In this document: positions 22,122 through 26,630 of the stretch, piece by piece
Layout of the letters: every line of letters begins with the position of its first letter
Position numbering within the stretch: position 1 is the stretch's first letter
Assembly (NCBI RefSeq): GCF_000423405.1
Contig: NZ_AUHX01000004.1
Span: 186,001 to 250,000, forward strand
Source: Mesonia mobilis DSM 19841
Lineage (GTDB): Bacteria > Bacteroidota > Bacteroidia > Flavobacteriales > Flavobacteriaceae
DNA: 64,000 bases
Direction of reading: 5' to 3'
Program-made: the position numbers and the translations under genes
Notes under the pieces: model-generated
Told to the model about the DNA's origin: nothing
The model's input: only the letters and a program-made list of their open reading frames with translations
Databases searched by the model: none

Positions 22122-22409
22122 CTATTTACTGCTCTTTTTATTTAAACTATTTATGAAAGCATATTTTTTCTCTGTAACTGGATCATTAGGCCAAAAATCC
22201 CTAGGAGAACAACTAAGTGCAATTGCAATTAGATTCAAATGAATGATGTTGTACTTTGCTTTTTTAGAAGGAGCTTCAATATCCGATATAAACGTAGTTC
22301 CTTTACCTATTGCTAACGATAGCTGTGTTTGGCTTATACCTTTTTCTTTTCTAAGCTCTTTCACCTTTTCGATTATATCACGTTCTATTTGATCTAATGT
22401 TTCGTGCAT
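22122..22409 (-). CDS. XRE-family helix-turn-helix regulator
   Basis: 95 residues. A single HTH_3 domain spans about 16-75, with the recognition region GISQTQLSLAIGKGTTFISDI and the family core NLIAIALSCSPRDFW. The short basic tail has no sensor domain. It resembles controller-type or phage-type small repressors. It is divergent from the sigma/Cas12f-like operon. The gap of 400 bases holds a perfect palindrome, AGGACTATAGTCCT, 37-50 bases upstream of its start, the likely operator for autoregulation. Whether it also controls the RNA and sigma genes on the other strand is inferred from position. Confidence 0.85.
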   Translation of the reverse strand: MHETLDQIERDIIEKVKELRKEKGISQTQLSLAIGKGTTFISDIEAPSKKAKYNIIHLNLIAIALSCSPRDFWPNDPVTEKKYAFINSLNKKSSK

Positions 22410-22445: not shown

Positions 22446-22459
22446 AGGACTATAGTCCT
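22446..22459. promoter_or_regulatory. Palindromic operator AGGACTATAGTCCT
   Basis: A perfect 14-bp palindrome between the divergent XRE gene and the structured RNA. It contains the GACT...AGTC half-sites typical of controller-protein and XRE boxes. It lies 20 bases upstream of the plus-strand -7 box at 22479, so a bound repressor would cover that promoter's upstream region. Confidence 0.6.
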
Positions 22460-22492: not shown

Positions 22493-22690
22493 AATATTAA
22501 ATTTGCGATCACTTCTTGATTAAACAGAAGCATCGCTTTGAGTCTCGTATAGGAAAAACTGGCGTTTTATAATTATACCACGAGACAATAAGTGTAGATG
22601 CTCACGCCTATAAAATGGTGTGGGCTCACTTATTTGTGGTCAAGGTACACGCCAGTACCTCCTATACAATAAGTTGAGTTCCACGCCTAT
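22493..22690 (+). ncRNA. Candidate guide RNA for the Cas12f-like/sigma system
   Basis: Structured non-coding segment upstream of the sigma gene. (1) Stem-loop GCGAT..CTTCT / AGAAG..ATCGC, 22505-22536. (2) Stem GTCTCGT 22542-22548 with ACGAGAC 22580-22586. (3) Hairpin AATAAGTG 22587-22594 with CACTTATT 22627-22634, enclosing CTCACGCC 22601-22608 paired with GGTGTGGG 22617-22624. Two G-U pairs here would be mismatches on the other strand, which supports a plus-strand RNA. (4) Hairpin AGGTAC / GTACCT at 22643-22660. The loop of stem 2 (ACTGGCGT, 22558-22565) is complementary to ACGCCAGT at 22649-22656, and GTATAGG 22547-22553 to CCTATAC 22661-22667, giving a possible pseudoknot as in Cas12f and TnpB RNAs. 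(5) 22666-22690 repeats the outer parts of 22585-22611 (ACAATAAGT and CACGCCTAT) and could pair with the same arm, like a repeat with its anti-repeat. A guide would begin after 22667 or after about 22687; a T-rich run follows at 22689-22704. Ends are inferred. Confidence 0.6.
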
Positions 22691-22809
22691 TTTTATTTCT
22701 TTACTCAGGTATACTTCTCGCCCATTCAAAGCCTTTCTTCTTTAGCTATCGAAGTTTTCGTTCGCCTTAATCTATTGACCTAACCGGGAGCTTGCTCCTG
22801 CAAACGCGA

Positions 22810-23604
22810 ATGCCTATGCAAACTCATTTCTATACCCAATTACAAAACGGCAAAGCCGAGGCGCTGGAGTTTTGGTACCAACGTTATGCGCGTATGCTGT
22901 GGTATATCGGTCTGCAGTGGCTCAAAGACGACTTTGTAATCGAAAATCTCGTACAAGAATGCTTTTTAAAACTTTGGCAAAATCGAGAAAAGCTGGAAAA
23001 CCCGAAGCACATCTTCTTTTTCCTGCGCTTAGTAATGAAGCGGGAGTGCATCAGCCATTACCACCAACCCAAGCATCAGTTTCAACGCAGCCTCAATCGC
23101 TTGGAATACTATGAAAATTACAGCGACTACCTCCTCAAAGACGATCCTGCGTTAGACGAAGCCCACCGACAGCAGCAGGCAGAAACTCAAGAAAGTTGGG
23201 AGCGGGTTCAAAAAGTATTACCCTTACTCTCCGGCAAGCAGCAAGACCTCATCGAATTATGTTTAGCCCACGGCTTTGAGTACAAAACCATCGCCCGGCT
23301 TACCGGGAGCAGCACCACCGCCGTCTATCGCGAAGTGCAGCGTGCCATTGCGCAACTCCAAAAGATCCTCTGCCAAGATGTAGAGCTGGAAGAGCCAATA
23401 GCGAATAAGGAGACTAAACAAGTCGAGCAAAAGCTTACCGAAACGCAAGTGCAGGTATGGCAACTGCGTTGTAAAGAGCAACGCTCCTTTGCCGAGATTG
23501 CCGAGCAATTGGGCACTTCCACCCAAGAAGTACAGCAGCAGTTTAGCTTGACCTATCAATATACCCAACAACATCCTCAAAAAACTTTAAGCCTAACACG
23601 ATGA
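22810..23604 (+). CDS. ECF-like sigma factor paired with a Cas12f-like protein
   Basis: 264 residues from the ATG at 22810. Sigma region 2 covers about 18-85, with the core-binding FVIENLVQECFLKLWQNRE and the region-2.4-like FFFLRLVMKRECISHYH. Sigma region 4 covers about 128-185, with the helix-turn-helix FEYKTIARLTGSSTTAVYRE. Unusually, a third part (about 208-252) reads like a second region-4 HTH: LTETQVQVW then SFAEIAEQLGTSTQEVQQQ. No anti-sigma gene follows. Instead the stop overlaps the next start by ATGA, so translation with the Cas12f-like protein is coupled. Expected role: direct RNA polymerase to sites chosen by the RNA-guided partner. A TTG start at 22792 is possible but less likely. 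A small hairpin (GGAGC-TT-GCTCC, 22787-22798) precedes the start. The region is more GC-rich than its surroundings, suggesting transfer. Confidence 0.8.
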   Translation: MPMQTHFYTQLQNGKAEALEFWYQRYARMLWYIGLQWLKDDFVIENLVQECFLKLWQNREKLENPKHIFFFLRLVMKRECISHYHQPKHQFQRSLNRLEYYENYSDYLLKDDPALDEAHRQQQAETQESWERVQKVLPLLSGKQQDLIELCLAHGFEYKTIARLTGSSTTAVYREVQRAIAQLQKILCQDVELEEPIANKETKQVEQKLTETQVQVWQLRCKEQRSFAEIAEQLGTSTQEVQQQFSLTYQYTQQHPQKTLSLTR

Positions 23605-24695
23605 ACAAGACCCTCAAACTCACCCGAAAGATCCAAGTGCGGGTCGATCTGCCCACGGCGGAAGAACGCCGGGAAGCGATCGGCAAGCTCTATCATTGGC
23701 AGAGCTGTTGCTACCGCACCGCCAACCTGATGGTCTCCCACCTCTATACGCAGGAGATGATCAGTGATTTTTTCTACCTCACCGAAGGACTGCGACTCAA
23801 ACTCTGGGATGAGAAGAAAGATCCCGACGGAGTCTTGAATACTTCGCGCATCAACACGCTCTATCAAGTGGCTTCCAAGCGTTTTAAAGGCGAAATGCCT
23901 ACCAATATCATTACCTGTTTAAAAGGGAGCCTTTACAGTGAGTTTATGCGGTACCGGGAAGACTACCGTTTTGGCGAACGCTCGATCCCCAACTTTAGAA
24001 AAGACATGCCCTTTCCCTTTAGTCGGGACGAAGTCCGCCAATTTACCCACAAACCCGAACAAAAAGCCTTTGGCTTCCGTTTGTTTGGTATACCGCTCCA
24101 CACCTACTTAGGGAGAGATCATAGTGATAAGTACCAACTCTTACACCGCTATGCACAAGACCAGCTCAAACTCTGTACCTCGCAATTGCAGCTCAAAAAA
24201 GATAAGATCTATTGGCTGCCAGTATTTGAATTTGAAAAAGAGACGCACGCGCTTAACCCGGGAATCGTCGCAGAAGCCTCCCTCTCGCTAGCCCATCCCC
24301 TCGTGGTAAAGGTCGGCAAGAAACGCCTGGCGATCGGTACGCTAGAAGAGTTTTTACACCGCCGGCTGGCGATACAAGCCGCGATCAAGCGCGCACAAAC
24401 TGGAGCCACCTATGCCCGATCGGGCAAAGGGCGCCGACGCAAACTAAAAGCCGTTGCAAAATTTAAAGCCACCGAGCGCAACTACGTACGTTCACGCCTG
24501 CACCTCTACAGTCGGCGGCTCATCGATTTTTGCCTGCAACAACAAGCCGGCACTTTGCTGCTCTTGCAACAAGACGCCAAAATCGAACTCGCCAAGCAAG
24601 AAGACTTTATCCTCCGCAACTGGAGCTACAACGAACTCCTCACCTACATTCAATACAAAGCCCAAAAAGTAGGAATTGAAGTAGTCGTCGGGTAG
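23601..24695 (+). CDS. Nuclease-dead Cas12f/TnpB-like protein
   Basis: 364 residues. The N-terminal part (1-60) has the TnpB/Cas12f opening (KLTRKIQVRVDLPTAEERRE, then a helical YHWQSCCYRTANLMV). GERSIPNFRKDMPFPFSRD at about 125-143 matches the Cas12f-type WED segment. A RuvC-like half follows from about 219. Where active enzymes have GIDxG, this one has GIVAE (221-225). Where they have a VVED-like RuvC-II strand it has LLLLQQD (319-325). The bridging helices (SGKGRRRKLKAVAKF) are basic, and NWSYNELLTYIQYKA (340-354) is the helix before the zinc finger. The chain then stops at VGIEVVVG, so there is no CxxC pair and no RuvC-III Asp. I infer an RNA-guided DNA binder that cannot cut. The ATGA overlap with the sigma gene and the structured RNA upstream point to RNA-guided transcription. 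Alternative: a decaying TnpB, but the long intact frame argues against it. No tnpA or transposon end is seen. Confidence 0.8.
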   Translation: MNKTLKLTRKIQVRVDLPTAEERREAIGKLYHWQSCCYRTANLMVSHLYTQEMISDFFYLTEGLRLKLWDEKKDPDGVLNTSRINTLYQVASKRFKGEMPTNIITCLKGSLYSEFMRYREDYRFGERSIPNFRKDMPFPFSRDEVRQFTHKPEQKAFGFRLFGIPLHTYLGRDHSDKYQLLHRYAQDQLKLCTSQLQLKKDKIYWLPVFEFEKETHALNPGIVAEASLSLAHPLVVKVGKKRLAIGTLEEFLHRRLAIQAAIKRAQTGATYARSGKGRRRKLKAVAKFKATERNYVRSRLHLYSRRLIDFCLQQQAGTLLLLQQDAKIELAKQEDFILRNWSYNELLTYIQYKAQKVGIEVVVG

Positions 24696-24880
24696 GTTTG
24701 TTTTAGAGGTTAGAGGTTAGGGATTAGGTAGTAGGTTTTAGGAAGCAGGTATGGGGAGATTAGCTATTAGAGGTTAGAGGTTAGAACCTAGAGACTAGAG
24801 TTTAGAACCAGGAAAAACGAGACAGGACTTCTGGAGTTTGGAATTTGGAATTTGGAAGTTGAATTTTAACTAAACCCCGG

Positions 24881-24974
24881 CATACTTTTCAAGCTTAGGA
24901 AAATAAGCCTAGATTTTTTTGCATCCGACGACCGCAAGGGAGAGGAATGCATACTTGGGCAATGCAAAAGAAAA
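24881..24974 (+). repeat. Family D repeat, copy 3
   Basis: Shorter copy: it lacks part of the middle present in the copies at 16475 and 26060 but keeps TGCATCCGACGACCGCAAGG and the TTGGGCAATGCAAAAGAAAA end. Confidence 0.75.
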
Positions 24975-24978
24975 GAAG

Positions 24979-25090
24979 CATGAATTGAAATTGAAATTGA
25001 ATTCGAAGTTGAAAAGATACCTCGATACCTCGGTATGACAGTATGAAAGTATATTGTAAAATGTATACTGAAAGATGTTGAGATCATAGA
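24979..25090 (+). repeat. Family E repeat, copy 2
   Basis: About 110 bp matching 18300-18405 (GATACCTCGATACCTCGGTA, then GTATATTGTAAAATGTATAC, then AAAGATGTTGAGAT). Confidence 0.7.
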
Positions 25091-25872
25091 ATTTAGAATC
25101 TAGAACCTAGAGACTAGAGTTTAGACGTTAGTTTATGGAAGTTAGGAGTTGGAAGAGAGAAGTTAGAAAAAACAGGATGCGATGCTGAATCAAGTTCAGC
25201 ATGACGGTTGGAATTTGATTTTTGGAATTTGATTTTTGGAATTTAGAGTTTAAAAATTTACTTCTTAAAAACCAAGTCAAAAAGTCACTTCGAGTGATTT
25301 TAAACAGCGATAGCAAGTTTAAAATTGTATCGAGAAGCAGCACTAAAATTGAGAATTTAAACTCAAAATGAGAACAACGAGGGTGCTTGCACACCCGCAA
25401 GGTGAGGTCTTCAAGACACTCACTAAGTGAGCTTCGCTCATCTGCAACGCGTGGGTTAATTTATGTATACCAAAAGCTGATAAGATCATAGAATTTAGAA
25501 TCTAGAACCTAGAGACTAGAGTTTAGACGTTAGTTTATGGAAGTTAGGAGTTGGAAGAGAGAAGTTAGAAAAAACAGGATGCGATGCTGAATCAAGTTCA
25601 GCATGACGGTTGGAATTTGATTTTTGGAATTTAGAGTTTAAAAATTTACTTCTTAAAAACAAAGTCAAAAAGTCACTTCGAGTGATTTTAAACAGCGATA
25701 GCAAGTTTAAAATTGTATCGAGAAGCAGCACTAAAATTGAGAATTTAAACTCAAAATGAGAACAACGAGGGTGCTTGCACACCCGCAAGGTGAGGTCTTC
25801 AAGACACTCACTAAGTGAGCTTCGCTCATCTGCAACGCGTGGGTTAACTTATGTATACCAAAAGCTGATAAG
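25082..25872 (+). repeat. Direct tandem duplication, 402 + 389 bp
   Basis: Copy 1 is 25082-25483 and copy 2 is 25484-25872. They are almost identical; copy 2 lacks one 14-base TTTTTGGAATTTGA unit and has a few substitutions. Each copy contains a 9-bp stem ATTTTAAAC / GTTTAAAAT around AGCGATAGCAA, and the inverted repeat CTCACT-A-AGTGAG. The near-identity suggests recent duplication. Matching minus-strand ORFs of 90 codons in each copy diverge after the 14-base gap and are not taken as genes. Confidence 0.85.
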
Positions 25873-26059
25873 AACCTAGAATTTAGAGAATAGAAACTAG
25901 AGCTTAGACGTAATTATTTGACATTTGGAGTTTGGAATTTGGAATTTAGAAGTTGGAAACAGTAGGATGAGATGCTGAATCAAGTTCAGCATGACGGCTG
26001 GAGATTGAAATTTGGAAGCTGGAAGTTGGGAGCTGGAAGTTGAATTTTAATTAACCTGG

Positions 26060-26176
26060 CATACTTTTCATGAGCATAGAAAATCAAGCAATAACTTAAG
26101 CGTTGGCGTGTAACGAAGAATCTGCATCCGACGACCGCAAGGGAGAGGAATGCACCTTGAGCAATGCAAAAGAAAA
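26060..26176 (+). repeat. Family D repeat, copy 4
   Basis: Full-length copy closest to the one at 16475-16596; it shares GAGCATAGAAAATCAAGCAA and the CGACGACCGCAAGGGAGAGG core. Confidence 0.75.
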
Positions 26177-26429
26177 ACACAATTCCGGACTTGATCCGGA
26201 ATCTCATGAATAAGAGTACACAATAACTTCACTAAACCAACCCAAAAAACTCGCAAACCCAAAAACTCACATACTCGAATACTCGAAAACCACAATTCTA
26301 AAAAACCTATAACTTCCTACTACCTAAAACCTAACCCCTCTCCTGAGCCTGCCGAAGGATCAACTTCAATTTCAATTTCAACTTCAAATTCATTTTCCTT
26401 ACTTTTACCTTCAGCTAAAATTCAATTGA

Positions 26430-26630
26430 ATGCTAGAGAACATTTCAGAAAAAACACAATTAATCCTGGTGATCATCGTACTAGCCGTTTTATTTTTTGC
26501 GGTGGTGAAAAACAACAACCGCAATAAAGAAAAACGCTACGATCGAAAATCTCGTAATTTCAGAAAAAACTTTTACGAAAAAAGAAAAGAAAAAGACAGT
26601 CCTGACAACATTAAAGATAAACCCGAGTAA
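26430..26630 (+). CDS. Small single-span membrane protein, unknown function
   Basis: 66 residues: a hydrophobic segment at about 10-27 (LILVIIVLAVLFFAVV), then a strongly charged tail rich in Lys, Arg and Asn. I do not recognise a family. It lies 58 bases upstream of the cobalamin adenosyltransferase gene on the same strand and may be co-transcribed with it. Such one-span proteins with basic tails are common in this group. It follows the repeat block directly. Confidence 0.55.
   Translation: MLENISEKTQLILVIIVLAVLFFAVVKNNNRNKEKRYDRKSRNFRKNFYEKRKEKDSPDNIKDKPE

Follow-up and report, generated by a model that had tools for sequence, protein, structure and literature searches.

Which RNA guides a sigma factor whose gene overlaps that of a Cas12f homologue lacking its nuclease residues, and to which sites would the pair be sent? 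We addressed this question for a locus of Mesonia mobilis DSM 19841 that lies in a window of 64,000 nucleotides (assembly GCF_000423405.1, contig NZ_AUHX01000004.1, positions 186,001 to 250,000; coordinates below are those of the window unless a contig is named). We consider it likely that a complex of nuclease-dead Cas12f (dCas12f) and an extracytoplasmic function (ECF) sigma factor, the dCas12f-sigmaE complex, is guided by RNAs encoded downstream of dcas12f to the leaders of two operons, its own and one encoding SusC, SusD and an M16 peptidase, and starts their transcription. This proposal builds on features read from the sequence: the genes, the loss of RuvC residues, the families of guides and leaders, a match between them adjacent to a G, two alternative pairings within the leader, and the gene neighbors.

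The first gene of the pair (22,810 to 23,604, forward strand; ATG at 22,810, with the listed open reading frame (ORF) opening earlier at a TTG at 22,792) encodes an ECF-like sigma factor with two region-4-like domains, which matches the Pfam families Sigma70_r2 and Sigma70_r4_2. Residues 10 to 257 of its 264, including the second region-4-like domain, align with PDB chain 9n9q_C (‘RpoE’; E=2.9e-65), and the new sigma architecture suspected in an earlier note on this DNA, made from the letters alone, is therefore not supported. The second gene (23,601 to 24,695, forward strand) overlaps the first by ATGA and encodes a protein of 364 amino acids, residues 3 to 364 of which match PDB chain 9n9c_A (‘Nuclease-deactivated Cas12f’; E=4e-144) with 58% identity over 361 amino acids. 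The NCBIfam model guided_TnpB was matched below its cut-off of 100 bits (55.8 bits, E=4.5e-15), and a Pfam search of this protein matched no family. In the alignment with the Cas12f chain 9nzo, whose aligned acidic residues we take to be those of RuvC-I and RuvC-II, the RuvC-I Asp sits opposite Ser227, in the context EASLSL that is likewise present in the solved dead homologue; five residues are missing where 9nzo has the RuvC-II Glu, and that chain extends 92 residues past the end of the match. Judged by this alignment, the protein is Cas12f-like with an inactivated RuvC. The pair is assigned to the kind with solved structures because of its matches to 9n9c_A and 9n9q_C, and this homology places the locus among the known dCas12f-sigmaE systems. 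The profile searches of both proteins and the alignments thus agree with the earlier note in its account of the coding sequences, which had proposed an ECF-like sigma factor, an overlapping Cas12f- or TnpB-like ORF with a shortened C-terminus and without the RuvC-I and RuvC-II acidic residues, and a pairing of nuclease-dead Cas12f with an ECF sigma factor, here found close to the chains of the 9n9c/9n9q series.

Relatives of the locus (genomes are coded G, loci L and contigs C, with the source genome as G000) were drawn from the same bacterial family. A dCas12f match at E≤1e-10 was present in 9 of 199 sampled genomes, and one at E≤1e-60 in 18 of the 397 genomes of a larger draw, where two genomes of the same genus had no match at the latter threshold. 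The larger draw supplied our set of 22 full-length dcas12f loci; a 23rd entry, from G266, is partial. The source genome itself carries a second complete sigma-dcas12f pair (L016, C4:162,225 to 163,313) with 77% identity to the copy in the window. A homologue search of genome contigs gave, in addition, one 18-residue match on a Spirochaetales contig.

A recurrent element lies 3' of dcas12f in these loci. It spans 66 to 72 nucleotides, folds into three hairpins with an ACAAC-type end, shows changes on both sides in 5 of 17 pairs, and was found in one to four copies downstream of all 22 full-length loci (12/12 in a first set and 10/10 in a further one). The window holds two tandem copies, 688 and 1,076 bp downstream of dcas12f: the scaffolds occupy 25,377 to 25,448 and 25,765 to 25,836 on the forward strand (both E=6.2e-16 with model R2, the first copy having belonged to the training set of that model) and are followed by the putative guides GCGTGGGTTAATTTAT (guide 1, 25,449 to 25,464) and GCGTGGGTTAACTTAT (guide 2, 25,837 to 25,852). 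Both copies lie inside a block duplicated at a spacing of 388 bp, and the second pair of the source genome has a copy of its own 872 bp downstream. The earlier note had overlooked the two copies in the window as well as that second pair. Such a dedicated RNA, encoded near dcas12f, fits the guide role. The intergenic stretch that holds the duplicated block (24,690 to 26,430) is crowded with degenerate repeats. Elsewhere, copies of the element adjoin dcas12f fragments in what look like decayed systems (L124 in G144:C18; L125 in G162:C12), and in G094 an extra copy (L019, 7,570 to 7,637), lying between the sigma gene and dcas12f, carries a guide unrelated to the leader. A pattern match at +429 in G031 was dropped as a false match; it does not appear among the R2 model results.

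Upstream of the sigma gene lies a second structured RNA (22,512 to 22,687, forward strand; 128 bits with model R1). The earlier note had placed it at 22,493 to 22,690 and called it the guide RNA; the structured RNA proved real, with covariation in an alignment of 59 copies, while the label was wrong, for it is a leader that holds the guide target. The guide role is better suited to the separate family that follows dcas12f, and of the 36 genomes with the upstream RNA, among the 199 sampled, 27 lack a dCas12f match at the threshold of E≤1e-10; the 36 include all nine dCas12f genomes of that sample. The leader precedes sigma at 17 of the 22 full-length loci (9/12 and 8/10 in the two sets). It is missing at both G301 loci, in G100 and at the second pair of the source genome, upstream of which a search with the leader model gave no match, and in G063 a remnant is left (E=0.008). 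Both the sigma and the dCas12f gene lie downstream of all 16 leaders tested in this position (cis leaders).

Two mutually exclusive helices can be drawn for the leader. Model R1, built from eight cis copies, found 59 leaders in 61 sources (a near-identical copy, G094c, was left out). Across this alignment, which was fitted to the tested structure and is biased towards it, 97.3% of cells pair, against 33 to 44% in slid controls, and 27 of 41 pairs have changed on both sides; 0 of 500 shuffles did as well. In the hairpin state, strand a (22,600 to 22,608; helix 6 of the covariation analysis) pairs with strand b, the stretch that contains the putative 16-nucleotide target GTGTGGGCTCACTTAT (22,618 to 22,633) preceded by a G at 22,617. 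A further helix, outside R1, joins the same strand b to strand c (22,668 to 22,687), with 93.3% of cells paired against 37 to 47% in slid controls and both sides changed in 9 of 17 pairs. Compared as pieces, the hairpin stretch and the b:c duplex have mean predicted energies over the 59 leaders of -22.4 and -21.7 kcal/mol, respectively. Directly 3' of strand c stands a terminator-like T-rich stretch (22,688 to 22,699), and a run of at least four T within 14 nucleotides after strand c occurs in 55/59 leaders, against 6 to 17 of 59 at seven control offsets. With one strand shared by two exclusive helices, the second of them followed by a T-run, we read the leader as a transcription attenuator on the strength of its predicted pairings. 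Ahead of it, at 22,498 to 22,505, is the element TAnnTTTG, whose consensus we take to be that of a -7-type promoter element; it stands 9 to 15 nucleotides before the model start in 46/59 leaders, a raw count without a chance control.

Some guides of dCas12f genomes match strand b. Of 35 guides from 18 genomes, 15 (in 12 genomes) reach our threshold of at least 12/16 against a leader from their own genome, those of G266 and G257 (one each) being counted after a one-base shift; G322 scores 16/16, and G134 and G125 score 15/16. Over these 15, identity between the guide-RNA gene and the leader is 0.73 to 1.00 at positions 1 to 16, 0.40 at position 17 and 0.13 to 0.40 at positions 18 to 35. It drops to 0.00 at position -1, where the guide-RNA gene has C in 14 cases and T in the remaining case; of the 59 leaders, 58 have G immediately before the target. 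As a chance control, one guide was compared with 251,964 G-preceded sites, four of which reached 12/16. The distance from this G to the leader end has a median of 66 nucleotides (range 65 to 89, measured in 58 of the 59). Unusual seeds also recur: GCGTGACAT, from one G144 guide, and GCGTGAGT, shared by both G309 guides, each reappear in a leader of the same genome. Other guides look unrelated to the leader (three in G100, one in G257, and those of G329, G380 and G094a), and a search for the target of the unrelated G329 guide gave 26 matches in that genome and 20 in the control. At L157 in G301, a divergent guide with a hand-set start matches a G-preceded site near a leader at 14/16, possibly a second type of target. 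By eye, two G100 guides share AAAGCCTTCCC (11 nucleotides) with a stretch before sigma at a locus without leader (L024).

In the source genome, a pattern covering the window's own guides occurs 11 times when up to two mismatches are allowed, against five in the control. Only two of these are free of mismatches, namely the cis leader and a second leader on the minus strand (C1:468,607 to 468,774) upstream of genes for SusC, SusD and an M16 peptidase; the other nine comprise three guide-RNA genes and six sites inside ORFs. The association with susC extends to relatives. The 43 leaders that are not in cis (23 from dCas12f genomes; the other 20 come from 18 of the 27 genomes with the leader alone) were followed by a SusC homologue in 32 cases and a SusD homologue in 30, as determined by homology search, which supersedes a stricter motif filter that had given 18/43 for susC. 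Of six further susCD loci tested, five have an M16 peptidase as the third gene and one has an S9 peptidase there.

From these features we infer a sequence of steps that comprises RNA loading, R-loop formation, the choice of start site, and the activity and bypass of the terminator. Guide RNAs transcribed downstream of dcas12f would load dCas12f, and the complex would then bind G-preceded 16-bp sites in the leaders of the sigma-dcas12f and SusC-SusD-M16 peptidase operons. The bound sigma factor would recruit RNA polymerase, which would start at a fixed distance downstream. The published dCas12f-sigmaE system is said to behave in this way, with promoter-free initiation set by the guide, a G beside the target and a start site tens of bp beyond it. 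If no complex is bound, polymerase coming from the leader promoter could stop at the T-run through pairing of strands b and c; initiation some tens of bp past the R-loop would give a transcript that begins after strand b, and since such a transcript lacks strand b, the b:c terminator could not form and the T-run would be ineffective. Initiation past strand b is the simplest reading in which sigma factor, target site and attenuator all have a part. The wider account, in which a leader family with two alternative folds controls SusC-SusD operons across one bacterial family and the guides of some lineages hit the shared strand, with initiation bypassing the attenuator and also activating the complex's own operon, is one to which we give slightly less than an even chance.

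A number of observations weigh against targeting of the leaders by the complex, or against parts of it. The window's guides match their presumed targets imperfectly, at 13/16 and 14/16 with a seed of 7 nucleotides for the susC leader, and at 12/16 and 13/16 for the cis leader, where guide position 2 is mismatched; because of this, self-targeting by the window's own copy, as predicted from these matches, is less certain than in G322, G134 and G125. Across the guide set, 20 of the 35 guides fall below 12/16, among them all those of six of the 18 genomes (G031, G100, G301, G309, G329 and G380). When guides and leaders were exchanged between genomes, 407 of 5000 permutations reached the match total and 715 the seed total, which is not significant; exchanged guides score about as well because nearly all targets are alike, and within-genome co-variation is therefore undemonstrated beyond a few seed variants. 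Upstream of position -1, identity between guide-RNA gene and leader is low except at -4, where the two agree in 87% of the 15 (0.87), and, more weakly, at -9, -10 and -13 (0.53 to 0.60). When five whole leaders are folded, and likewise in the consensus fold, the hairpin state persists and b:c does not form. Finally, the 27 genomes that have the leader and no dCas12f match imply that the leader's own function needs no complex.

The main rival to DNA targeting has the guide RNA act on the leader transcript instead. As the guide shares its sequence with strand b, it can pair with the nascent strand c, and in doing so it could prevent termination; for one relative's guide (of the G125 type) and strand c of four leaders, the predicted energies of -19.1 to -21.8 kcal/mol come near that of b:c itself. 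The matches of guides to strand b are, however, uninterrupted, whereas pairing with strand c needs bulges. The G before the target is retained in all but one of the 59 leaders, as a DNA-side motif would be, although this G also pairs within the leader. Antitermination through strand c would, moreover, make the sigma factor unnecessary, and we regard this route as unlikely.

A second rival concerns the copy in the window rather than the mechanism. It could be decaying, its guides having drifted, while the C4 copy does the work; the 12 to 14 matches out of 16 of the window's guides would fit this, as would the presence of a guide RNA at that second copy. Set against it, both genes, both scaffolds and the leader of the window look intact, and the C4 guide does no better, at 13/16. 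Decay of the window copy appears distinctly unlikely.

The R-loop could also have the opposite effect to activation, halting polymerase that started at the leader promoter, as TnpB-derived TldR repressors do. The position of the target downstream of a promoter-like element in the 46 leaders that have one suits such a block; the sigma and dCas12f genes that follow every cis leader tested, and the solution of a relative in a structure series containing an RpoE chain, speak against it, and we judge repression improbable. Least credible of all is the earlier note's view that the upstream RNA guides the dCas12f encoded next to it, for which its high degree of structure and its head-to-tail placement with the operon could be cited: it is found in genomes without a dCas12f match, its 3' flank holds a T-run in nearly all copies, the element downstream of dcas12f is the better candidate at every full-length locus examined, and neither a 3' guide with a genomic target nor restriction to genomes with the effector was found, the 22-nucleotide flank having no second match in the source genome at up to three mismatches, the relatives' form of it having 10 matches across 9 genomes (3 at the RNAs and 7 elsewhere, against 7 for a reversed-pattern control), and scans of individual loci (3.5 to 64 kb) for a target of the 3' end having found none.

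Divergent from the leader is a gene for an XRE/Cro-type helix-turn-helix (HTH) protein of 95 amino acids (22,122 to 22,409, reverse strand; Pfam HTH_3, E=4.8e-7), and between it and the leader promoter lies a perfect palindrome, AGGACTATAGTCCT (22,446 to 22,459), a possible operator. The earlier note had thought this neighbor might be new; it is not peculiar to the locus, as a small divergent ORF stands upstream of 16/16 cis leaders and 35/43 of the others, and the two such ORFs tested with Pfam are both HTH_3 proteins. Of the 11 other leaders without SusC, six form a divergent subfamily (L073, L078, L159, L183, L185 and L187), some of whose neighbors resemble mobile-element genes by eye, and one lies on a 3.5-kb contig. 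At L149 (G329:C5) the leader is followed by a short sigma-like ORF of 155 amino acids in place of susC. Two loci examined alongside the six susCD loci differ from them, L071 having an amidohydrolase and L070 lacking susC. Among the 27 leader-bearing genomes without a dCas12f match there is one convincing copy of the guide-RNA scaffold, at L197 (G021:C1:23,455 to 23,523; E=1.1e-9), and there are two matches at E=0.07 to 0.08.

If leader targeting is true, a CRISPR-derived complex has been placed on a leader-RNA family spread across one bacterial family. The locus would then offer guides and targets of natural origin, together with a gene circuit in which self-control is joined to control of nutrient uptake by RNA-guided transcription, and, as the conserved leader exists without the complex, it becomes possible to study directly how an activator of CRISPR origin joined a separate riboregulator. 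The leader family may be new as a target of dCas12f-sigmaE; among the literature matches listed there was no leader RNA before susC, from which its absence from print does not follow.

Set beside known systems, the leader resembles the general class of transcription attenuators, with one strand in two helices, the second followed by a T-run. It differs in that its shared strand doubles as the apparent DNA target of a guide, and an Rfam search of the window's own stretch and those of two relatives, three in all, gave no match at E≤1. The dCas12f of the window is homologous to other Cas12f and TnpB chains over residues 84 to 361 (9nzo), 82 to 361 (8hr5) and 113 to 362 (7wju), and unlike these it lacks the residues aligned to the RuvC-I Asp and RuvC-II Glu as well as the C-terminal part. 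TldR (PMC13418256) is likewise a nuclease-dead, RNA-guided DNA binder for gene control; it represses, and the part of that account drawn on here mentions no sigma partner, whereas in the window an ECF sigma gene overlaps dcas12f. The closest likeness is to the dCas12f-sigmaE structures (PDB 9n9c, 9n9m, 9n9o and 9n9q), with which the locus shares homology over full-length dCas12f and the domain layout of the sigma factor. The organism of the 9n9c series is presumably Flagellimonas taeanensis. The G before the target was observed here, and we take the published system to have the same motif. The window adds two tandem guide RNAs and a target within a two-fold leader to a likeness that, for the published system, was drawn from its protein chains.

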